The notes: generated from the sequence alone by a model not told the origin. DNA of 64,000 bases from Skermanella mucosa (GCF_016765655.2 NZ_CP086106.1:3585001-3649000); one strand, 5' to 3'. Positions 4,060-39,094 are shown, counted from the first letter of the stretch. Made by a program: numbers and translations.

Positions 4060-6042
4060 TTACGCCGCCTGTTCCCCGCGTTCGTCCACCAGACTGACGA
4101 TGTCGTCCATGATGGCGGTCAGGTCGTAGTCCTTGGGGGTGTAGACGCGGGCCACGCCGGCGGCCTTCAGGGTCCGCTCGTCCTCCGGCGGAATGATGCC
4201 GCCGACGACGACGGGGATCTCGCCCAGGCCCAGGCGGCGCATGCGGTCGAGGACGTCGGTCACCAGCGCCACGTGGCTGCCGGACAGGATCGACAGGCCG
4301 ACGACATGGACGCCCTCCTCCAGGGCGGCGTTGACGATCTGCGCGGGGGTCAGGCGGATGCCCTCGTACACCACTTCCATGCCGGCATCGCGGGCGCGCA
4401 CCGCGATCTGCTCCGCCCCGTTGGAATGGCCGTCCAGCCCCGGCTTGCCGACCAGCATCTTGATCCGACGGCCGAGCCGCTCCGAGACCTCGGTCACGCG
4501 CTCGCGCACGGTAGCCAAGCTGTCGGCGCCGCCGGTGCTGGCGGCCTTGCCGACGCCGGTCGGGGCGCGGTACTCGCCGAACACGCCGCGCAGGACGGCG
4601 GACCATTCGCCGGTGGTGACACCGGCATGGGCGCAGCGGATGCTGGGCTCCATGATGTTGCGCCCGTCGCGGGCAGCTTCGCCCAGGTCGGCCAGGGCCG
4701 CTTCGACGTCGGCCGGGTTGCGGGCGGCGCGCCAAGCTTCGAGTCGAGCGAGCTGGTCCGCCTCCGCCTGGGGATCGACGGCCAAGAAGCCGCCGTCGTC
4801 ACCCGCGGTCAGCGGCGACGGCGCCGACTCGGTGAACTTGTTGACGCCGACCACGATCTGCTCGCCGGCCTCGATCGCCGCGAGGCGCCGGGTGTTCGAC
4901 TCGACCAGCCGCTGCTTCATGTAGGACGACTCGACGGCGGCGATGGCGCCGCCCATGGCGTCGATCCGGGCCAGCTCGTCCAGCGCCTCGGCCATCAGCT
5001 CCTCGACCTTGGAGTCGATGACGTGGCTGCCGTTGAACAGGTCGCCGTATTCCAGCAGGTCGGTCTCGAACGCGACGATCTGCTGGAGGCGCAGGCTCCA
5101 CTGCTGGTCCCACGGGCGCGGCAGGCCCAGCGCCTCGTTCCAGGCGGGAAGCTGGACCGCGCGGGCGCGGGCGTCCTTGGACAGGACGACGGCCAGCATC
5201 TCGATCAGGATGCGGTAGACATTGTTTTCCGGCTGCGGTTCGGTCAGGCCCAGGCTGTTGACCTGGACGCCATAGCGGAACCGGCGGAACTGCTGGTCCT
5301 CGATGCCGTAGCGATCGCGGGTGATCTGGTCCCACAGATAGGTGAACGCCCGCATCTTGCACAGCTCGGTGACGAACCGGATGCCGGCGTTGACGAAGAA
5401 GCTGATCCGCCCGACCACCTGGGGGAAATCCTCGGCCGGGACCTGCCCCGACGCCTTCACGGCGTCGAGCACCGCGCAGGCGGTCGCCAGCGCGAAGGCC
5501 AGCTCCTGCACCGGAGTCGCCCCCGCCTCCTGCAGGTGGTAGGAGCAGACGTTCATGGGGTTCCACTTCGGCACTTCACGGTAGGTGAAGGCGATCATGT
5601 CCGTGGTCAGCCGCATCGACGGCTCAGGCGGGAAGATGTAGGTGCCGCGGCTGAGATATTCCTTGATGATGTCGTTCTGGGTCGTCCCGGCGAGCTGCGC
5701 CCGGTCGGCGCCCTGCTGCTCCGCGGCGGCGATGTAGAGCGCCAGCAGCCACGGCGCCGTCGCGTTGATCGTCATGGAGGTGTTCATCTCGCCCAGCGGG
5801 ATGCCGTCGAACAGCGTCTTCATGTCGCCGAGATGGCAGACCGGAACGCCGACCTTGCCGACCTCACCCCTGGCCAGCGGATGGTCGCTGTCGTAGCCGG
5901 TCTGGGTCGGCAGGTCGAAGGCTACGGAAAGGCCGGTCTGTCCCCGCTTCAGGTTCGTCCGGTACAGCGCATTCGAGGCGGCTGCGGTCGAATGGCCGGA
6001 ATAAGTCCGGATCAGCCAGGGCTTGTCGCGATGTCCACTCAT
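4060..6042 (-). CDS. ecm: Ethylmalonyl-CoA mutase (B12-dependent)
   Basis: Converts (2R)-ethylmalonyl-CoA to (2S)-methylsuccinyl-CoA in the ethylmalonyl-CoA pathway of acetyl-CoA assimilation, using adenosylcobalamin. The 660-residue protein has the mutase large domain (TTQNDIIKEYLSRGTYIFPP around residue 140) and a C-terminal cobalamin-binding domain. The DxHxxG signature DGHSNG sits at 537-542, with His539 as the lower cobalt ligand. Methylmalonyl-CoA mutase and isobutyryl-CoA mutase are relatives, but single-chain architecture and divergent placement next to ccr, with mcd nearby, make the ethylmalonyl-CoA enzyme (MeaA/Ecm) by far the best call. The start is 362 nt from the ccr start. Confidence 0.93.
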   Translation of the reverse strand: MSGHRDKPWLIRTYSGHSTAAASNALYRTNLKRGQTGLSVAFDLPTQTGYDSDHPLARGEVGKVGVPVCHLGDMKTLFDGIPLGEMNTSMTINATAPWLLALYIAAAEQQGADRAQLAGTTQNDIIKEYLSRGTYIFPPEPSMRLTTDMIAFTYREVPKWNPMNVCSYHLQEAGATPVQELAFALATACAVLDAVKASGQVPAEDFPQVVGRISFFVNAGIRFVTELCKMRAFTYLWDQITRDRYGIEDQQFRRFRYGVQVNSLGLTEPQPENNVYRILIEMLAVVLSKDARARAVQLPAWNEALGLPRPWDQQWSLRLQQIVAFETDLLEYGDLFNGSHVIDSKVEELMAEALDELARIDAMGGAIAAVESSYMKQRLVESNTRRLAAIEAGEQIVVGVNKFTESAPSPLTAGDDGGFLAVDPQAEADQLARLEAWRAARNPADVEAALADLGEAARDGRNIMEPSIRCAHAGVTTGEWSAVLRGVFGEYRAPTGVGKAASTGGADSLATVRERVTEVSERLGRRIKMLVGKPGLDGHSNGAEQIAVRARDAGMEVVYEGIRLTPAQIVNAALEEGVHVVGLSILSGSHVALVTDVLDRMRRLGLGEIPVVVGGIIPPEDERTLKAAGVARVYTPKDYDLTAIMDDIVSLVDERGEQAA

Positions 6043-6199
6043 TACGGCGCTTTCCCCTTCGCACGTTTTCCAAGAACCCGGTCACCTGCCGTCCGGCCGA
6101 CCGCCGCCGGCACACCATGCCACGAGAGCGTCTTATGCTGCGACAGCGAACGCATTTGCTTCAACTGGCATTTTTCTCATCCGATAGTGCTTTCGACTG

Positions 6200-6233
6200 A
6201 TTGTTTCAGTGACCGGGTGACCGGTGAAACAAT
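6200..6233. promoter_or_regulatory. Candidate operator: ATTGTTTCA inverted repeat
   Basis: ATTGTTTCA (6200-6208) and its exact complement TGAAACAAT (6225-6233) are separated by 16 nt, which contain a tandem GTGACCGG. The same ATTGTTTCA, followed by nTGAC, recurs at 9210 just before mcd. Sharing between pathway genes suggests a binding site for a regulator of the ethylmalonyl-CoA pathway. This is inference from symmetry and recurrence only. Confidence 0.4.
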
Positions 6234-6349
6234 TTACCGTATTGTGCGTTGCATCGGAAGGATCATCCTGTTTAGACTGCGGAAACTCTACGATCCATAG
6301 GGTTTTAAGCTTCAGGGCGTCTCGACATCGACGCATATGCAGCGAAGTT

Positions 6350-6365
6350 CGATACGGCCGTATCG
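6350..6365. promoter_or_regulatory. 16-bp perfect palindrome upstream of ccr
   Basis: CGATACGGCCGTATCG is a perfect palindrome without spacer, ending 39 nt before the ccr ATG. A dimeric TetR- or GntR-type repressor commonly binds such sites close to the start of transcription. In Methylobacterium a TetR-type regulator of ccr (CcrR) is known, but I cannot show that this is its site. Confidence 0.4.
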
Positions 6366-6404
6366 GGGTATCCTGCGGCAGAAAAAGGTTTTGAGGAACA
6401 AGGC

Positions 6405-7688
6405 ATGACCGAGGCAGCGAACGTCATCACCCGCCCGGCCGGTCCGGCGGTCAAGGACCTCTACGACGTGGGCGAGATCCCGCCGCTGGGCCATGTGCCG
6501 GCGAAGATGCACGCCTGGGCGATCCGGAGGGAGCGTCACGGCGAGCCCGAGAAGGCCATGCAGCTCGAAGTCGTCGCGACTCCGGAGATCGGACAGGACG
6601 AGGTCCTGGTCATGGTCATGGCGGCCGGCGTCAACTACAACGGTATCTGGGCCGGCCTGGGCAAGCCGATCTCGCCGTTCGACGTGCACAAGGCCGAGTA
6701 CCACATCGCCGGCTCCGACGCGTCGGGGATCGTCTGGGCCGTCGGCAGCAAGGTCAAACGGTTCAAGGTCGGCGACGAGGTCGTGGTCCACTGCAACCAG
6801 GACGACGGCGACGACGAGGAGTGCAACGGCGGCGACCCGATGTTCTCGACCTCCCAGCGGATCTGGGGCTACGAGACGCCGGACGGCTCCTTCGCCCAGT
6901 TCTGCCGCGTGCAGGCCCGCCAGTTGATGGCCCGGCCGAAGCACCTGACCTGGGAAGAGAGCGCCTGCTACACCCTGACGCTGGCGACCGCTTACCGCAT
7001 GCTGTTCGGCCACCGCCCGCACATTCTCCGGCCGGGTCACAACGTGCTGGTCTGGGGCGCCTCGGGCGGCCTGGGCTCCATGGCGATCCAGCTGATCGCG
7101 ACGGCCGGCGCCAACGCGATCGGCGTGATCTCGGACGAGACCAAGCGGGACTTCGTGCTGTCGCTCGGCGCCAAGGGCGTGCTGAACCGCAAGGACTTTG
7201 ACTGCTGGGGCCAGCTGCCGGACGTGGACGACAGCGCCGCCTATGCCGAGTACATGAAGCGGGTCCGCCCCTTCGGCAAGGCGATCTGGGACATCACCGG
7301 CAAGGGCAACGACGTCGACTTCGTGTTCGAGCATCCGGGCGAGCAGACCTTCCCGGTCTCCTGCTTCGTGGTCAAGCGCGGCGGCATGGTGGTGTTCTGC
7401 GCCGGCACGTCGGGCTTCAACCTGACCTTCGACGCGCGCTTCGTGTGGATGCGCCAGAAGCGCATCCAGGGCAGCCACTTCGCCAACCTGCTCCAGGCGA
7501 GCCAGGCCAACCAGCTGGTGATCGAGCGGCGCCTGGACCCCTGCATGTCGGAGGTCTTCTCGTGGGAGGACATCCCGCGCGCCCACACCAAGATGCTCCG
7601 CAACGAGCACAAGCCGGGCAACATGGCCGTGCTGGTGAACGCGCGGACGCCCGGCCTGCGGACGCTGGAAGACGTGGCGGAGGCGTAA
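6405..7688 (+). CDS. ccr: Crotonyl-CoA carboxylase/reductase
   Basis: Catalyses the NADPH-dependent reductive carboxylation of crotonyl-CoA to (2S)-ethylmalonyl-CoA, the signature step of the ethylmalonyl-CoA pathway. The 427-residue protein belongs to the medium-chain dehydrogenase/reductase family. The GroES-like N-terminal domain carries the GVNYNGIWAGLGKP segment (residues 75-88), and the Rossmann motif GASGGLG is at 218-224. The full-length match to Ccr, rather than a generic quinone reductase, is clear from the N-terminal KDLYDVGEIPPLGHVP region. The start follows TTTTGAGGAACAAGGC; GAGGA is the ribosome site. It is divergent from ecm. Confidence 0.96.
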   Translation: MTEAANVITRPAGPAVKDLYDVGEIPPLGHVPAKMHAWAIRRERHGEPEKAMQLEVVATPEIGQDEVLVMVMAAGVNYNGIWAGLGKPISPFDVHKAEYHIAGSDASGIVWAVGSKVKRFKVGDEVVVHCNQDDGDDEECNGGDPMFSTSQRIWGYETPDGSFAQFCRVQARQLMARPKHLTWEESACYTLTLATAYRMLFGHRPHILRPGHNVLVWGASGGLGSMAIQLIATAGANAIGVISDETKRDFVLSLGAKGVLNRKDFDCWGQLPDVDDSAAYAEYMKRVRPFGKAIWDITGKGNDVDFVFEHPGEQTFPVSCFVVKRGGMVVFCAGTSGFNLTFDARFVWMRQKRIQGSHFANLLQASQANQLVIERRLDPCMSEVFSWEDIPRAHTKMLRNEHKPGNMAVLVNARTPGLRTLEDVAEA

Positions 7689-7708
7689 GGCTCCGCCGGC
7701 CGATTCCG

Positions 7709-32053: not shown

Positions 32054-32932
32054 TCATTTCTGCGCCGACGCCTGCGACTCCAGCCAGCCGTCCACCAGCG
32101 GCCGGTTGGCGGCGATCCAGGTCCTGGCGCCTTCCTCCGGGGAGCTGGCTTCGTTAACCTCGGCCATCAAGGAACCCAGGCTGTCGTCGCCCATGTCCCA
32201 GGCGTTCAACCAGTCGAGGACTTCCGGGTACTCCTCGCCGAAACCCTTGCGCGACATGAAATGGATGTCGTCGGCCGCGCCATATGCGTTCCTGGGATCC
32301 TCCAGGTATTTCAGGTCATACTTGGCGAAGACCCAATGGGGGCTCCACAGCGTCACGACCACCGGCTTCTCCTGTCGGTACGCCCGGTCGAGGGCGCTGA
32401 TCATCGCCACTTCCGACGAGATCATGAGGTTGTAGTCAAGCCCGTAGGCCTTGATCGCCTGCTCGGTCATCTCCATCAGGGAGGAGCCGGCCTCGATGCC
32501 GACGATCCCGTCGGAGGAGCGGCCGTCGCCGAAGGTCGCCGCCTTGTCCTTGAGATCCTCGATGCTGCCGATGCCCATATAGGCCGGCACGACGAGGCCG
32601 AGGCGCGCCCCGTGGTACCAGGACTCGTGAAGATCGATATCTTCCTTGAACCGGTCGTAGTAGGCGGCATCGGTGGTCGGCATCCAGATTTCCAGCGCCA
32701 GGTCGATGGCATCGGTGGAAAGCCCGGTATAGAGGATCGCCTTCTCGACCGTCTTCAACTCGACCTCGTAGCCCTTCTCCTCAAGCACCTGCTGCCACAT
32801 GTGACTGACGGCGATCGCCTCCGCCCAGTTGTTCAGGCCGATCCGGATCGGGTCCTTCGCGAATGCGCTCGGCGCCCCCAAAGACGTGATGAGAAAGGCT
32901 CCCAGGATCGGGAAAAGATTGAGGCGCCTCAT
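32054..32932 (-). CDS. ProX/OpuAC-type betaine or choline binding protein
   Basis: A 292-residue periplasmic solute-binding protein of the glycine betaine/choline/ectoine class (OpuAC fold). A cleavable signal peptide ends near residue 25 (PSAFA). Conserved parts include IGLNNWAEAIAVSHMWQQVL, LEIWMPTT and LWSPHWVFAKYDL; the Trp residues could form the quaternary-ammonium cage. No permease or ATPase gene is next to it, so it must use a transporter encoded elsewhere or be a separate sensor component. The nearest downstream gene is the oxygenase. Confidence 0.88.
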   Translation of the reverse strand: MRRLNLFPILGAFLITSLGAPSAFAKDPIRIGLNNWAEAIAVSHMWQQVLEEKGYEVELKTVEKAILYTGLSTDAIDLALEIWMPTTDAAYYDRFKEDIDLHESWYHGARLGLVVPAYMGIGSIEDLKDKAATFGDGRSSDGIVGIEAGSSLMEMTEQAIKAYGLDYNLMISSEVAMISALDRAYRQEKPVVVTLWSPHWVFAKYDLKYLEDPRNAYGAADDIHFMSRKGFGEEYPEVLDWLNAWDMGDDSLGSLMAEVNEASSPEEGARTWIAANRPLVDGWLESQASAQK

Positions 32933-33099: not shown

Positions 33100-33942
33100 T
33101 CAGCGTCCGATGGATCCGAAGGCCTGTTCGGCGATGATGCCGGCGACCCTGGCCTGATCGTCGAACAGCGGGAGTTCCCCCGGCGCGCTGTCGAAGCCGT
33201 CGGCCCAGACATAGCGCGCCGTCCGGGTCTCCATCATGCGGGCGTTGACTCGGACCCGCCCGTCCACGACGCGCACGCTGCCCTCCAGGATGAAGTCGGG
33301 GGGCGGCGCGTCGGGGGCGTGCCGGCTGTCCACGACCAGAAGGTGCGGATTTCCCATCAAGGCGCGCTTCAACTCGTCCTGGAGCCCCGACGCCATACCG
33401 GTTCCGAGATCGTCGAGCGGAACGAAGGCATCGACTTGGACTGTCGGCACCGGACTGCCCATGCCCCCGGTGTCTCCGGCAAGCGTGACCAGCAAGGTCA
33501 TGGCCACGACGGCCCCGCCGAGCGCCACCCAGGGCCTCCGGTCGGCCGACCATCGCTTCCGGTCGGGCGCAGTCTCCGCAGCGTCCGCCTCGGACGACGG
33601 CACGCGGGTGAAGACCGGGACGTAGGAGCCCTTCGGCAGCTCGATCCGGAGGGTGCTGGCGCTGCCGTCGGTCAGGTAATAGCGTTCCAGACGCCGGCGC
33701 AATTGCCCGGCCTCGATGCGGACGACGGGATCGGCCTGGGGGTCGAAACTCTCGTCCCGCCCCAGGACGGACACCGCGATCGCATAGGCCTTGATGCGGT
33801 CGGTCCGTCCGGCCAGCGTCTCCTCCACCACGTAGCGCAGGAAGTTCCTGCACCGGGTCGCCCGCCGGAACTCCTCCGTGGCGCAGATGGCGTCGAGATG
33901 ATCGAGGATTTCCTTGTCGGTGGGTTCCCCTCCCGGCGCCAT
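33100..33942 (-). CDS. Membrane regulator-like protein A: wHTH-like, TM, FlgO/TolB-like domains
   Basis: A 280-residue protein with three parts. Residues 10-112 contain a winged-helix-like block: FDPQADPVVRIEAGQLRRR forms a helix like the recognition helix of OmpR/CadC proteins, and LRIELPKGSYVPVF a wing. One membrane helix lies at about 138-155. Residues 165-275 resemble the TolB-N/FlgO-like domain, for example ILEGSVRVVDGRVRVNARM. This is ToxR/CadC-style topology: DNA-binding inside, sensor outside. A paralogue lies at 37254-38210. The ATG at 33942 is 10 nt after the upstream gene; a longer start is less likely. Regulatory function is inferred. Confidence 0.72.
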   Translation of the reverse strand: MAPGGEPTDKEILDHLDAICATEEFRRATRCRNFLRYVVEETLAGRTDRIKAYAIAVSVLGRDESFDPQADPVVRIEAGQLRRRLERYYLTDGSASTLRIELPKGSYVPVFTRVPSSEADAAETAPDRKRWSADRRPWVALGGAVVAMTLLVTLAGDTGGMGSPVPTVQVDAFVPLDDLGTGMASGLQDELKRALMGNPHLLVVDSRHAPDAPPPDFILEGSVRVVDGRVRVNARMMETRTARYVWADGFDSAPGELPLFDDQARVAGIIAEQAFGSIGR

Positions 33943-33952
33943 GGCAGCCACG

Positions 33953-34519
33953 CTACGTGACCCGCCGGAACAGATCCGGGTATTCGGTGACGAGGCCGTC
34001 GCAGTCCACCTCGACGTCGCGCACGAAGTCGCCATCCACCGACTCGTACCGGTAGCGCCGGCCGGGCTCCAGGCAGGTATAGCGCTGGCGGTTGGGCGTC
34101 ACGGTCAGGTCGGGAGGCGACACATAGGCGGCCAGTATCTCGGCGCTCTCGCCGGCGCGCAGCCCGAGCCGCCGGATCGGCAACGTGTTGGTGAACGGCG
34201 TGACGGCGAGATCGACGTCGATCGCCCCCTGGAGCGCCCCGAGCGGCGTCCCGGTGCCGGTGGTCCAGGACCCGGCCCCGTCGCCCGCCACGTGCAGCGA
34301 CCGGGCGGAGCCGACCAGCCTCACCTCCAGGGTCCTGACCCGCCAGGCCGGATCGCAGGAGATGCGGTAGGTCAGCGCCAGAGGGTCTCCGCCGTCCGGC
34401 GTCGCGATGACGGTCGCCTCCGCAACGATGCCCCGGGGCGCCTCCTGGAGCACGAGATGCTCCAGCCCCGTCCCCGCCCAGTCGCGCCAGCGCGCGACGA
34501 GGGTTCGCCCGTCGCTCAT
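33953..34519 (-). CDS. Putative glycolipid-binding protein (DUF1089-type)
   Basis: A 188-residue protein of the putative glycolipid-binding family. Diagnostic parts are the repeated short strands, DVDLAVTPFTNTLPIRRLGL, and the C-terminal VEVDCDGLVTEYPDLFRRV. No signal peptide is seen, so it is probably cytoplasmic or membrane-surface associated. The ATG overlaps the TGA of the MscS-type channel gene, so the two are translationally coupled, hinting at a membrane-lipid role linked to the channel. Confidence 0.83.
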   Translation of the reverse strand: MSDGRTLVARWRDWAGTGLEHLVLQEAPRGIVAEATVIATPDGGDPLALTYRISCDPAWRVRTLEVRLVGSARSLHVAGDGAGSWTTGTGTPLGALQGAIDVDLAVTPFTNTLPIRRLGLRAGESAEILAAYVSPPDLTVTPNRQRYTCLEPGRRYRYESVDGDFVRDVEVDCDGLVTEYPDLFRRVT

Positions 34520-36654
34520 GCCTGCTCCTTCGTTTGCTTTCCGCCGTCGAACGGGTCCCGGATCGCCTCGACCGCGGCGAACCCGACCGCGCGGCTTGCG
34601 GCGTTCGGATCGTCGACCCGGACGACCACGCCCCGGCCGACAAGGTCGATGCCGTTCTCGTTGAACGCCTTGATGATCCGCTGATAGGCCTCGCGCCGGA
34701 TGGTGAACTGCTCTCCGGGCTTGGCGATGTACTTTACCCCGATGATCACGGCATCGTCCTCCACCCGGCGCACCCCCTGGGACTTCAGCGGCTCGATGAA
34801 GCTGGGTCCCATCTCCGGGTCGTCGGACAGTTCGGCGCTGATACGCTTCACCAGCTTCTTGACGAGGTTCAGGTCGGTTTCCGGCGGCACGCGGAACTCC
34901 AGCCGCATCAGCGCCCAGTCGCGGGTGTAGTTGGTCAGGGCCTTGATCTGGCCGAAGGGAAGCGTGTGGACCGCGCCGCGGTGGTGGCGCAGCTTGAGCG
35001 AGCGGAGCGAGATGTTCTCCACGGTGCCCCGGAGCTGGCCGACCTCGACATAGTCCCCGATATGGAAGGCGTCCTCCAGCAGGAAGAAGATGCCGGACAG
35101 GATGTCGGCGATGGTCGACTGGGCACCCAGCCCGATCGCGATGCCGACCACGCCGGCGCCCGCCAGCAGCGGCCCGATGGCTATTCCCAGGGAGGACAGC
35201 ACGATCATCACGACGACGGCCACCAATGCCACCTGGAGAAACTTGCGGAGCAGCGGCAGCAGGGTCGCCATCCGCTGGGCGGTCCGGCGGTCACGGTCGT
35301 TCTGGGACGCGATCAGGCGGTCGAAGCTCCGGATCAGCAGCGCCCAGCCGACATAGCCGAGCAGCAGGATCACGCCGGCGTCGAACAGCAGCCGCAGCGC
35401 GATGCCGAACGGGCCCGGCTGCCGCGCGGCGTCGAATCCCCAGAGGAAGGCCGTGGCGACTACCGCCAGAACCAGCAGCGAGACCCAGACTGCCCGCATC
35501 AGCCGCACGGTGGTGGCGGACGCCTCGCCGTCGACGGCACCCGCCGATTCGTGGAATCGGGCGACCGGACGGTGCAGCAGCAGGGCGGTCACCGGAACCG
35601 CGGCCGCCAGGACGAAGCTGGCCAGCAGGCGGAGGCCCGTGCCCGGCTCCAGCCGCAGCGCCGCGGCGGCGAGCGTCAGCCAAAGGCCGGCGAGGTAGAT
35701 CGTCGCCAGCACCAGGCCGGTGCCGATCCCGTGGCTGGCGGAAAGGTCGAGATTGAGATACCCGCCGATCAGCGCGGCGATGTCCCGGCGCCGGCTCCAA
35801 AGCTGGACCGCCAGGTACAGGAAAGGCAGCGTGCTGATCGGCAGGATCAGGGCGATAAGCGGATCGTATGCCATGCCCAGCGCGTTCAGCAGGTCGAACA
35901 GGCCGAGCAGCGCCGCGCTGAGGACGGCGACCCATATGCCGGAGCGGTGGATCGCCGCCGCCGCCTGGTCGCCCACCGGCAGAAGCCTCAGGTCCGGCCG
36001 CCCGGGCGCGCACAGGACCCTGAAGATCAGATCGGCGATCAGTACCGTCAGGGCCGCCTGGAGCGCCGCGACGAAGATCGCGGGTGCCGCGGGATGGGTC
36101 GGGCGCAGGATCGCATAGGCCAGCAGCAGGCCCGCGACGAACCCGCCGATCCGCAGCAGGTCACGTGCGGCACTCCGCAGCACGCTGCCCGGTGCCGCGG
36201 GCGGCAGCCGTGTCAGGGCCACCCAGACCAGGACGCCGGCCGCGAACAGGAACAGGAGCGATACCGCCAGCCGCCATGGCCGGATGGCGGCATCCCGCCC
36301 GTTCGGCCGTTCGAACGCATCGGCCAGCGCCGCCGGAATCCGGGGATAGGCCTTGACCACGGCATCCAGGCGCCCGGCGTAGAACGCGAGGGGATTGGAT
36401 TGCCGGGGAGCCGCGGCCCGGGTCCGCGCCTCCGTCAGCATCCTGTCCCGCAAGGCGGCGCGGACCTGCTCGCCGTCCATGACCGACAACAGGGCGTCCG
36501 TCTGCTCGGGCGTCAGCCCTCCGGGAAACGCCTGGATGACCGCATCGACGCCGGCGCCGGACGCCTGGACGGCCGGCTGGGCGGACGCGAGACCGGGGCA
36601 GAACCAGGCAGCCAGGAAGAGCGCCAGGAGGATCAGTCTGACGACCACCATCAT
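34516..36654 (-). CDS. MscS-family mechanosensitive ion channel
   Basis: A 712-residue large MscS-type channel. A signal peptide (1-25, cut after AQ) and a periplasmic part precede about ten membrane helices between residues 125 and 530. The MscS core includes the pore helix region AGVVGIAIGLGAQSTIADIL, then FFLLEDAFHIGDYVEVG and the cytoplasmic vestibule to about residue 690. Such channels release solutes on hypo-osmotic shock. It follows the RT0821-like gene by 4 nt and overlaps the glycolipid-binding gene. Confidence 0.9.
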   Translation of the reverse strand: MMVVVRLILLALFLAAWFCPGLASAQPAVQASGAGVDAVIQAFPGGLTPEQTDALLSVMDGEQVRAALRDRMLTEARTRAAAPRQSNPLAFYAGRLDAVVKAYPRIPAALADAFERPNGRDAAIRPWRLAVSLLFLFAAGVLVWVALTRLPPAAPGSVLRSAARDLLRIGGFVAGLLLAYAILRPTHPAAPAIFVAALQAALTVLIADLIFRVLCAPGRPDLRLLPVGDQAAAAIHRSGIWVAVLSAALLGLFDLLNALGMAYDPLIALILPISTLPFLYLAVQLWSRRRDIAALIGGYLNLDLSASHGIGTGLVLATIYLAGLWLTLAAAALRLEPGTGLRLLASFVLAAAVPVTALLLHRPVARFHESAGAVDGEASATTVRLMRAVWVSLLVLAVVATAFLWGFDAARQPGPFGIALRLLFDAGVILLLGYVGWALLIRSFDRLIASQNDRDRRTAQRMATLLPLLRKFLQVALVAVVVMIVLSSLGIAIGPLLAGAGVVGIAIGLGAQSTIADILSGIFFLLEDAFHIGDYVEVGQLRGTVENISLRSLKLRHHRGAVHTLPFGQIKALTNYTRDWALMRLEFRVPPETDLNLVKKLVKRISAELSDDPEMGPSFIEPLKSQGVRRVEDDAVIIGVKYIAKPGEQFTIRREAYQRIIKAFNENGIDLVGRGVVVRVDDPNAASRAVGFAAVEAIRDPFDGGKQTKEQA

Positions 36655-36658
36655 GACC

Positions 36659-37018
36659 TTACTGCGGGGCGAACTTCCATGTCCCGTCCGCGATGCGGCA
36701 GACCGGCAATATGTAGACCACGTTGCGCCGGCCCACCTCGCTGCTCATCCGGGCATCACGGCAGGGCATCCCGTTACGCTCGTAGCTCCTGACCATGGTG
36801 ATGGTCCCGCCGTGTCCCGTCTGGGGGTTGGACCAGGGCCTGGACTCACCGTCCGGCGCATTGCGGAGCATGTCCGCTCCGACCTGCATGATGATCTTGG
36901 TATCGTCTCCCGAATAATGGGCTTCGCCCAGGCGGCTGCCGAACAGCAACTGCGCTTCCACCGCATCCAAGGGAAGAAGCATCGCCGCGGCCAGCATCAG
37001 CAAACCCGATCTTCTCAA
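36659..37018 (-). CDS. RT0821/Lpp0805-type surface protein
   Basis: A 119-residue secreted protein. I start it at TTG 37018, because GGGAGGG lies 6-7 nt upstream and the product then begins MRRSGLLMLAAAMLLPLDAV, a good signal peptide cut near EAQ. Longer in-frame ATG starts would bury this signal inside the protein. The mature part has PWSNPQTGHGGTITMVRSYE and two Cys residues that could pair. It resembles the RT0821/Lpp0805 family of small surface proteins without known function. It is first in the channel operon. Confidence 0.7.
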   Translation of the reverse strand: MRRSGLLMLAAAMLLPLDAVEAQLLFGSRLGEAHYSGDDTKIIMQVGADMLRNAPDGESRPWSNPQTGHGGTITMVRSYERNGMPCRDARMSSEVGRRNVVYILPVCRIADGTWKFAPQ

Positions 37019-37253
37019 AGCCAACCCTCCCTGAAATGCTGTATTCGCCAAAGACGGAAAGCGATGCGCTGCACTGCCGTGAGAGATCAGGTCCATATTC
37101 GGCGCTGATCTATAAGGATCCACATGGGAAGGTTATTTCAAGCTCAAGTTAATGGCCAAAGGTATTATAACCATCGGCGATAGAGAGCCGGGATGAATGA
37201 AAGTTTATCGTGCGACGGATCGCGGCAAGCTGTCCCGTAGACGGGGGACGATC

Positions 37254-38210
37254 ATGGGAACCGGCCAGAACAAATGCCTTCCGGAAACGGGGGAGTTGTC
37301 CGCCTTCTCCGATCCCGTGCCCCCGTCCCAGGTCCGCGAGCAGTTGGACCGCATCTGCGCTTCCGAGGAGTTCCGACGCTGCCACCGGAGCCGGCGTTTC
37401 CTCGGCTACATCGTCGAGGAGACGCTGGAAGGCCGAGAGGCCCGCATCAAGGCCTATTGCGTGGCGATATCGGTTCTGGACCGGGACGAGACGTTCGATC
37501 CCCAATCCGATCCGCTGGTCCGCATCGAGGCCGCCCAACTCCGCCGCCGGCTGGAGCGATATTATCTCACCCGGGGGTCCGGGGACCCGGTGCTGATCGA
37601 CCTGCCGAAGGGTGGCTATATCCCGGTCTTCAGCCGGAGGACGCCGGTCGTCCCGGAGGGCGTCACGATGCCGAAGCGCCCTCCGGGCGGACTTGCGGGA
37701 GCGTCCATGCTGGCGGCGCTATCGGTCGCCGGCGTCCTGGGCGTGGCATACGCGATCCATGACCCGGATATGGTCGCAGCAGCCCTCGGCGGCCCTATGA
37801 TCCCTGCGGTCCGGGTCCTGCCCTTCTCACCCGCCGAGGATTCCCGAAGCGCCGAGATGGCTTCCGGAATCGCCGACGAGATCACGCAGGAACTGACGCG
37901 CCGCAGGGTGCTCGCCGTGCTTGGAGCCGAGGGTTCCTCGGTCGGGACTTCGCACCGCGCGGACGCGATCCTGACCGGTACGGTACGTACCGGATCAGGC
38001 ATGGTGCGCGTGACCGCCAGCCTGGTGAGCGCCAGGAACGGGACATACATCTGGACGAAGGCGTACGACAGGCCGGTGGAGGAGCCGGCGCTCGAAGCTC
38101 AGGCCCGGGTCGCCGCGGAAATCGGTGCCGACCTGGAGTTGCCGATGAACGGCCAACAAGATCGAGCGCCCGCCCAAACCGTCAATCCCGTCAAGCACAT
38201 GAACTGGTAA
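37254..38210 (+). CDS. Membrane regulator-like protein B: wHTH-like, TM, FlgO/TolB-like domains
   Basis: A 318-residue paralogue of the protein at 33100. The winged-helix-like block (residues 28-128) contains FDPQSDPLVRIEAAQLRRRL followed by ERYYLT, nearly identical to its partner, and the wing PVLIDLPKGGYIPVF. One membrane helix lies at about 147-167. The outer part (175-295) is a clear TolB-N/FlgO-like domain with AILTGTVRTGSGMVRVTASL and NGTYIWTKAYDRP. The ATG at 37254 has GGGGGAC upstream. It is divergent from the channel operon across 235 nt, in which I see no clear element. A one-component stress regulator is the best guess. Confidence 0.74.
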   Translation: MGTGQNKCLPETGELSAFSDPVPPSQVREQLDRICASEEFRRCHRSRRFLGYIVEETLEGREARIKAYCVAISVLDRDETFDPQSDPLVRIEAAQLRRRLERYYLTRGSGDPVLIDLPKGGYIPVFSRRTPVVPEGVTMPKRPPGGLAGASMLAALSVAGVLGVAYAIHDPDMVAAALGGPMIPAVRVLPFSPAEDSRSAEMASGIADEITQELTRRRVLAVLGAEGSSVGTSHRADAILTGTVRTGSGMVRVTASLVSARNGTYIWTKAYDRPVEEPALEAQARVAAEIGADLELPMNGQQDRAPAQTVNPVKHMNW

Positions 38211-38225: not shown

Positions 38226-38356
38226 GTTCCAGCGGCGCCCACCCTCCGTAGTGTCGCGCGACAAAAACAAGCGCTGGTCAGCCGCGCTCCAAGGTCAGCC
38301 CAATCGACGACCCGCTGGACGACCAGCCCGCTCCGATCGTGTTCAGGAGAGTTTCA

Positions 38357-39094
38357 ATGTCGCAGTTTCGGCGCACTTCCGCAGAGTTCCTCGGCACATT
38401 CTGGCTGGTCTTCGGTGGGTGCGGAAGCGCCGTGCTGGCCGCCGCGTTCCCGGAGGTCGGAATCGGGCTGGTCGGCGTATCGCTGGCCTTCGGCCTGACG
38501 GTGCTGACCATGGCCTACTCGATCGGCCATATCAGCGGCTGCCACCTCAACCCGGCCGTGACCATCGGCCTGTGGGCGGCCAAGCGCTTCCCTACGAAGG
38601 ATATCCTGCCCTACATCGTCGCGCAGATCGCCGGCGCGATCGTGGCGGCCATCGCCCTGTACGTGGTCGCCAGCGGCAAGGCCGACTACAGCCTCGCGGT
38701 CAACGGACTGGCCGCGAATGGCTTCGGCGCGGCTTCGCCCGGCGGCTATACCATGGCGTCGGGAATGCTGATCGAGATCATCCTGACGTTCGGCTTCCTG
38801 ATCGTGATCCTCGGTTCGACCGACACCAGGGCTCCGGCCGGCTTCGCCCCTCTCGCGATCGGACTGGCGCTTACCCTGATCCACCTGATCAGCATCCCGG
38901 TCACCAACACCAGCGTCAATCCGGCACGCAGCACCGGCCCGGCGCTGATCATGGGCGGCGTGGCGCTGCAACAGCTTTGGTTCTTCTGGGTGGCGCCGTT
39001 GATCGGCGGCGTGCTTGGCGGCATCGCCTACCGCATGCTGTCGGCTGAGGAGACGGTCGTGAAGCCCGCGATCACGGGCGAGCCGGCACGCTGA
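38357..39094 (+). CDS. aqpZ: Aquaporin Z
   Basis: A 245-residue water channel with six membrane helices and two half-helices bearing NPA motifs at residues 65-67 and 188-190. The selectivity-filter residues Phe45, His176, Thr185 and Arg191 match water-specific aquaporins rather than glycerol facilitators. The ATG follows AGGAGAG. Together with the MscS-type channel and betaine-binding protein it supports an osmotic theme for this region. Confidence 0.95.

Follow-up and report, generated by a model that had tools for sequence, protein, structure and literature searches.

Two paralogous genes, A and B, lie around a gene for an MscS-family mechanosensitive channel in the soil bacterium Skermanella mucosa, and the question raised by this locus is what the two proteins do there. 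The window analysed, a stretch of 64,000 nucleotides, corresponds to positions 3,585,001-3,649,000 of contig C1 in a genome of 7.84 Mb. Protein A (280 aa) is encoded at 33100..33942 on the minus strand and protein B (318 aa), which is divergent, at 37254..38210 on the plus strand; a sequence-only reading had placed both open reading frames at these coordinates. An alternative in-frame ATG for B is present upstream at 37197. The alignment of A and B was nearly full length, with 43% identity over 283 columns (E 4e-63). The motif FDPQ[A/S]DP[V/L]VRIEA[G/A]QLRRRLERYYLT, searched as FDPQ-x-DP, was found at exactly two sites in the 7.84 Mb genome, one in A and one in B, in agreement with the earlier claim of a shared N-terminal motif block. 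A and B were confirmed to be paralogues composed of an N-terminal block, one membrane helix and an outer domain of the TolB-N/PelC type. Our reading, which we consider probable, is that they are short membrane-anchored one-component transcription regulators like CadC and ToxR that likely share an operator and receive two envelope inputs.

One hydrophobic helix was predicted in each protein, at residues 150-169 in B and at about residues 138-156 in A, with a K/R-rich N-terminal side. The helix of B (37701..37760, plus strand) was identified from the model and the sequence. The helix of A, WVALGGAVVAMTLLVTLAG (33475..33531, minus strand), was identified from sequence, and K/R before it and D/G after it correspond to an N-in, C-out orientation. 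This charge pattern predicts an N-in/one-helix/C-out topology for A and B, and the ToxR/CadC-like topology proposed before is consistent with it. The outer domain of B (residues 181-300, 37794..38153, plus strand) was assigned to the TolB-N/PelC/FlgO type, and the putative periplasmic domain of A (33103..33447, minus strand) was assigned to the TolB-N/PelC type by alignment with the modelled B domain. In structure comparison, the outer domain reached Z values of 11-12 against TolB, CsgG, PelC and FlgT (8-12 for the fold group overall) and a Z of 8.9 over 113 residues against the membrane-proximal subdomain of the CadC periplasmic domain (3ly7 residues 194-317). These matches bear out the suggested TolB-N/FlgO-like domain and, on the model, agree with a putative periplasmic sensor domain of the TolB-N type.

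Sequence similarity to the outer domain of B was also found in two other proteins encoded in this genome: a 569-aa protein, in which the matching segment follows a canonical PF00486 domain (E 8e-6), and a 756-aa protein, in which the match has the same position. Both proteins begin with a PF00486-type domain, one of which scored above and the other below the Pfam cut-off. The outer-domain matches tie A and B to the CadC architecture beyond topology. The 756-aa frame (contig C3 of the same genome, L007 430-2697) matched the winged helix weakly, shares the TolB-N-type domain and seems to contain TPR-like repeats; by eye it resembles regulators of the SARP/BTAD type.

The N-terminal block of B is located at 37323..37643 (plus strand), with helices at residues 24-36, 44-58, 67-73 and 88-105 and wing strands at residues 113-116 and 125-128. 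The corresponding block of A (33592..33915, minus strand), a predicted DNA-binding block with the recognition helix DPVVRIEAGQLRRRLERYYL, showed 62% identity to the B block across the genus; its fold was assigned by alignment to the B block, which was the one modelled and searched against structures. AlphaFold prediction of B with 44 aligned sequences gave a pLDDT above 90 in the N-terminal block. The isolated block was predicted with a mean pLDDT of 89.8 and a pTM of 0.82, and contained helices at 8-20, 28-42, 51-57 and 72-89 and a hairpin at 97-100/109-112 (block numbering). In VIA-align, places 1-11 among solved structures were all taken by DNA-binding domains of the OmpR/PhoB type, including SaeR, VanR, AdeR, ArlR and PhoB, with 77-91 residues aligned and Z values of 5.4-6.5, which are middling and within the range reached by chance arrangements. 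The next matches were other winged helices, PerR/Fur and MepR, with Z values of 4.6 or lower. VIA-align did not list the DNA-binding domain of CadC, an absence that is uninformative either way. Plain Foldseek with the N-terminal block returned noise (best E 1.3).

Because the Z values were middling and Foldseek was not significant, sequence evidence was added for the fold. The family profile was compared with 13 OmpR-type domains encoded in this Skermanella genome; its helix and wing were aligned to these domains with E values of 2.3e-5 and 6.4e-5 and probabilities of 76 and 64%, the hhalign match of E 2e-5 spanning 34 columns. The family pattern VRIEA..LRRxLE...GY falls on the recognition helix and wing of the OmpR-type domains. 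PF00486 (Trans_reg_C) was the commonest, if weak, Pfam match among the N-terminal blocks of the family (6/66, best E 1.4e-4). The N-terminal blocks of A and B matched neither PF00486 nor any other Pfam model, NCBIfam and PHROGs returned no match for either protein, and neither B nor the N-block profile retrieved a relative by sequence among solved structures. The N-terminal four-stranded sheet of the OmpR type was missing from the model, with a helix in its place, and therefore we call the block a variant winged helix. It is predicted to be a helix-rich, winged-helix-like form that is non-canonical with respect to the OmpR type, and we infer that the blocks of A and B bind DNA. When the B block was compared with OmpR-type winged helices, as had been proposed as a check, the winged-helix-like core was retained by its OmpR/PhoB-type top matches, whereas the assignment to the canonical OmpR type had to be given up for want of the sheet and of a PF00486 match.

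The N-terminal block could also be some other helical-plus-hairpin module, and A and B would then be envelope scaffolds of the TolB/PelC type. The Foldseek result and the missing PF00486 match in both proteins would suit such scaffolds, but we judge them improbable, given that the top structural matches were uniformly of the OmpR type, that the weak sequence signals agree with them, and that in a paralogous architecture the place of the block, ahead of the same outer domain, is held by a canonical winged helix. The label 'adenylate cyclase' is attached to many plasmid-borne relatives (e.g., CP140953.1 and NZ_CP115843.1). However, no cyclase catalytic domain was found in A or B with Pfam and NCBIfam, or in the long relative with Pfam, which contradicts this annotation and makes a family of adenylate cyclases scarcely credible. 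A large and mostly misannotated family, found in rhizobia and relatives of Azospirillum, appears to consist of transcription regulators that are bound to the membrane and carry a non-canonical winged helix.

The genes between A and B matched MscS, Glycolipid_bind and 17kDa_Anti_2 in Pfam, and MIP (AqpZ) and OpuAC were matched nearby. A 17 kDa surface-antigen-type protein (PF16998; 36659..37123) is encoded by the first gene of a minus-strand run, followed by an MscS-family channel of 712 aa (34516..36654), a putative glycolipid-binding protein (PF06475; 33953..34519) and A. The junctions are a 4 bp gap, a 4 bp overlap and a 10 bp gap, and B is divergent from this run across about 130 bp. The gene identities given in the earlier reading were correct, but A is the last cistron of the run and not a separate flanking gene. 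The aquaporin Z-type MIP gene (38339..39094, plus strand), directly downstream of B, and the gene for a glycine-betaine-binding (OpuAC) protein (32054..32932, minus strand) were found close by, as had been noted.

All five Skermanella genomes share the gene order RNR - A - Glyco - (MscS) - 17kDa - B - AqpZ - Sug - ChaC - DUF2125, read as far as each fetched stretch extends. A, B and the genes for the 17 kDa protein, the glycolipid-binding protein and AqpZ were thus present in 5/5 loci, which upholds the expected conservation of the neighbourhood for these genes, but not for the MscS gene (3/5; missing in S. aerolata and S. stibiiresistens) or the OpuAC gene (2/5). The MscS and betaine-binding genes are dispensable parts of the neighbourhood. 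Part of the conservation is plain synteny within one genus, as RNR, ChaC, Sug and DUF2125 were kept too.

The divergent intergenic region (37124..37253, no strand assigned) contains a candidate operator/promoter, TTTCAAGnnCAAG...TATAAC at about 37136-37173, which was the best-conserved part in the five-genome alignment. An imperfect inverted repeat (37128-37136/37167-37175) encloses this conserved stretch. A consensus scan of the intergenic region gave no sigma-70 promoter, and promoter and terminator scores were at shuffle level. A genome-wide scan for the block TTTCAAGnnCAAGnTnA found one other exact site and otherwise sites with one mismatch, 13 in all versus 4 for the reversed control; with so few sites, no regulon could be drawn. 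The operator of A and B is probably located in the divergent region between the 17 kDa gene and B, where the conserved stretch is a candidate site.

In a tree of 128 proteins, A and B formed one Skermanella clade (SH-aLRT 99) in which each was monophyletic (100 and 95), and so they appear, from these sequences, to derive from one duplication at the base of Skermanella, before the genus radiated. Within the same genome, A and B shared 85-90% identity in the recognition helix, 55-65% in the whole block and 32-34% in the outer domain. Since the recognition helices are nearly the same and the outer domains have diverged, A and B most likely have one operator in common, and this unequal divergence suggests, as its simplest reading, a shared operator with separate inputs. 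Across the whole family, too, no part is more conserved than the recognition helix (75-90% identity to the long relative), which indicates a shared constraint and not a shared operator as such. The same pattern, together with the position of A as the final gene of the putative target run and the divergent orientation of B, could mean that one protein is the true sensor-regulator and the other a dominant modulator, for example an operon-encoded A that feeds back on B. We regard this division of roles as unlikely, as both proteins keep all domains and the invariant family residues in every Skermanella genome and show no sign of decay.

One more full relative, the third in this genome, has 678-682 aa and C-terminal TPRs and is encoded 1.1 Mb away. 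The wider family is common in Alphaproteobacteria and mostly has C-terminal TPRs, and forms without TPRs occurred in several separate parts of the 128-protein tree. In a Rhizobium clade, a short member without TPRs and a long member with TPRs were located tail to tail at about 5000-7700 of the fetched loci (L107, L108, L110, L111, L118, L121, L123, L124, L127, L128, L131 and L133), most of these pairs being flanked by a Crp/Fnr-type gene on one side and a response-regulator/sensor-kinase gene pair on the other. Here two regulators of this kind are paired for a second time, independently. The N-terminal winged-helix block was tandemly duplicated within single ORFs of 717-730 aa in Ensifer sp. 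BR816 and Rhizobium leguminosarum Norway (L101 5001-5744 and L125 4995-5702).

MscS genes of the same type recurred near members of this family. All Skermanella MscS copies with at least 60% identity were located within about 4 kb of a family member. In S. aerolata, in S. stibiiresistens and, as a second copy, in the window's own genome, an MscS of this type lies at a distance of 2.6-4 kb from the TPR-bearing third relative, with other genes intervening. Outside Skermanella, this MscS type was present within 5 kb (a 10 kb stretch) in 9 of 78 family loci chosen by N-block similarity only, versus 0.27 expected from an MscS density of 56 in 166 Mb, taken from 26 chosen genomes. The nine loci include several closely related rhizobia and, grouped by shared neighbours, perhaps represent four to six independent groups, for which the Poisson P was about 2e-4 to 4e-7. 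For the 26 chosen genomes, a distance test suffers from bias, as six loci in which MscS had already been seen were included, and it is not used as evidence. MscS is directly adjacent to the family member in some of the nine loci; in a Rhodospirillales MAG (L139 55-2655) and a Rhizobium (L107 2943-5300), it lies upstream on the same strand at 100-300 bp. In the neighbouring genus (genomes G006-G050), the close MscS type and the regulator family were both present in 17 genomes, present singly in 1 + 1 and both missing in 26, a near-coincidence that may follow one clade.

Osmotic or membrane tension is our leading guess for the stimulus, since MscS and AqpZ are nearby. The stronger version, in which the stimulus of A and B is specifically osmotic or membrane tension and MscS is the principal target, is possible but, in our estimate, rather doubtful. 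AqpZ adjoins in 5/5 Skermanella genomes, MscS of this subfamily is in the A/B locus in three of them and by the TPR relative in the other two, and the excess among the 78 loci points the same way. However, the A/B locus is without MscS in 2/5 and without OpuAC in 3/5 genomes, genes intervene at the TPR locus, and several of the nine loci are from related rhizobia. A further point against it comes from Azospirillum (L169 6687-9462), in which the genes for an MscS relative (60% identity) and a 17 kDa antigen are divergent and no A/B-type gene was found near the pair in the fetched 15 kb. Given this pairing without A and B, they were probably later additions to an older 17kDa-MscS envelope-gene pair, or were lost in Azospirillum. 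The regulator reading is well supported, while the osmotic or envelope reading is circumstantial, osmotic function being drawn from gene context only, and a stress-sensing role is plausible.

The regulator reading would work as follows. The winged-helix-like block would be located in the cytoplasm and bind DNA, the single helix would span the inner membrane, and the small TolB-N/PelC-type periplasmic domain would sense, or dock to, an envelope component and pass the envelope state through the membrane helix to the DNA-binding part. A and B would recognise one operator between the divergent 17 kDa gene and B, bound either as a heterodimer or as homodimers in competition. Two envelope inputs would then control the 17kDa-(MscS)-Glyco-A run and B, perhaps also aqpZ, and A, as the final gene of the run under control, would provide feedback. 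The paralogy, layout, predicted folds, pair conservation, unequal domain divergence and recurrent MscS proximity were computed; from here we infer DNA binding, the operator, dimerisation and the stimulus. A bolder proposal, which we put forward as speculation with a low chance of being right, is that A and B, as a new CadC-like class with one operator and two sensors, read the same DNA site and weigh two envelope states against each other, of which one is determined by A's own operon, and control MscS and outer-envelope proteins, and that the same regulator class has been coupled repeatedly to this MscS type in Alphaproteobacteria. To our knowledge, the transcriptional control of MscS channels in Alphaproteobacteria has been little explored, and a family with recurrent MscS proximity is a direct candidate regulator of these channels. 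The Skermanella pair would be a compact case of duplicated one-component sensors that split their inputs and keep a shared output.

No paper describing the A/B family or the pair was found in the open-access literature. The earlier suggestion that the module is undescribed therefore holds for the pair and the DNA-binding variant, which are so far unnamed, but not for the architecture, which is known: ToxR-like receptors such as CadC and ToxR are one-component proteins of the wHTH-TM-periplasmic kind (PMC5430869). Like CadC of E. coli (3ly7), A and B have an N-terminal winged-helix-like domain, one TM helix and a C-terminal periplasmic domain, and their outer domain resembles the CadC periplasmic domain at its first subdomain (Z 8.9). 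A four-stranded sheet opens the OmpR-type DNA-binding domain, a topology given for CadC (PMC5430869), whereas the DNA-binding domain of A and B is predicted to be without this sheet and has no PF00486 match; for these two reasons we treat A and B as a variant that would work like a ToxR-like receptor and not as strict members. The long wHTH-TM-TolB_N-TPR proteins of Alphaproteobacteria (e.g., the 682-aa frame) have the same N-terminal block (about 50% identity), TM helix and start of the outer domain, but continue for about 300 further residues with TPRs, a C-terminal periplasmic part that A and B do not have, so that the pair are truncated forms. The N-domain of TolB, PelC, FlgT, CsgG and GNA1162 share the outer-domain fold (Z 8-12), but these proteins are located in the periplasm or the outer membrane and have no DNA-binding domain. 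VttRA/VttRB and ToxR/TcpP are pairs of membrane-bound winged-helix regulators in one circuit, as A and B may be, with a likeness at the DNA-binding domain that so far extends to the fold. These proteins are named as ToxR-like receptors (PMC5430869); their outer domains are unlike those of A and B, for which an interaction is a proposal. In the co-component systems ToxR/ToxS and VtrA/VtrC, the partner is without a DNA-binding domain, whereas A and B both carry the block.
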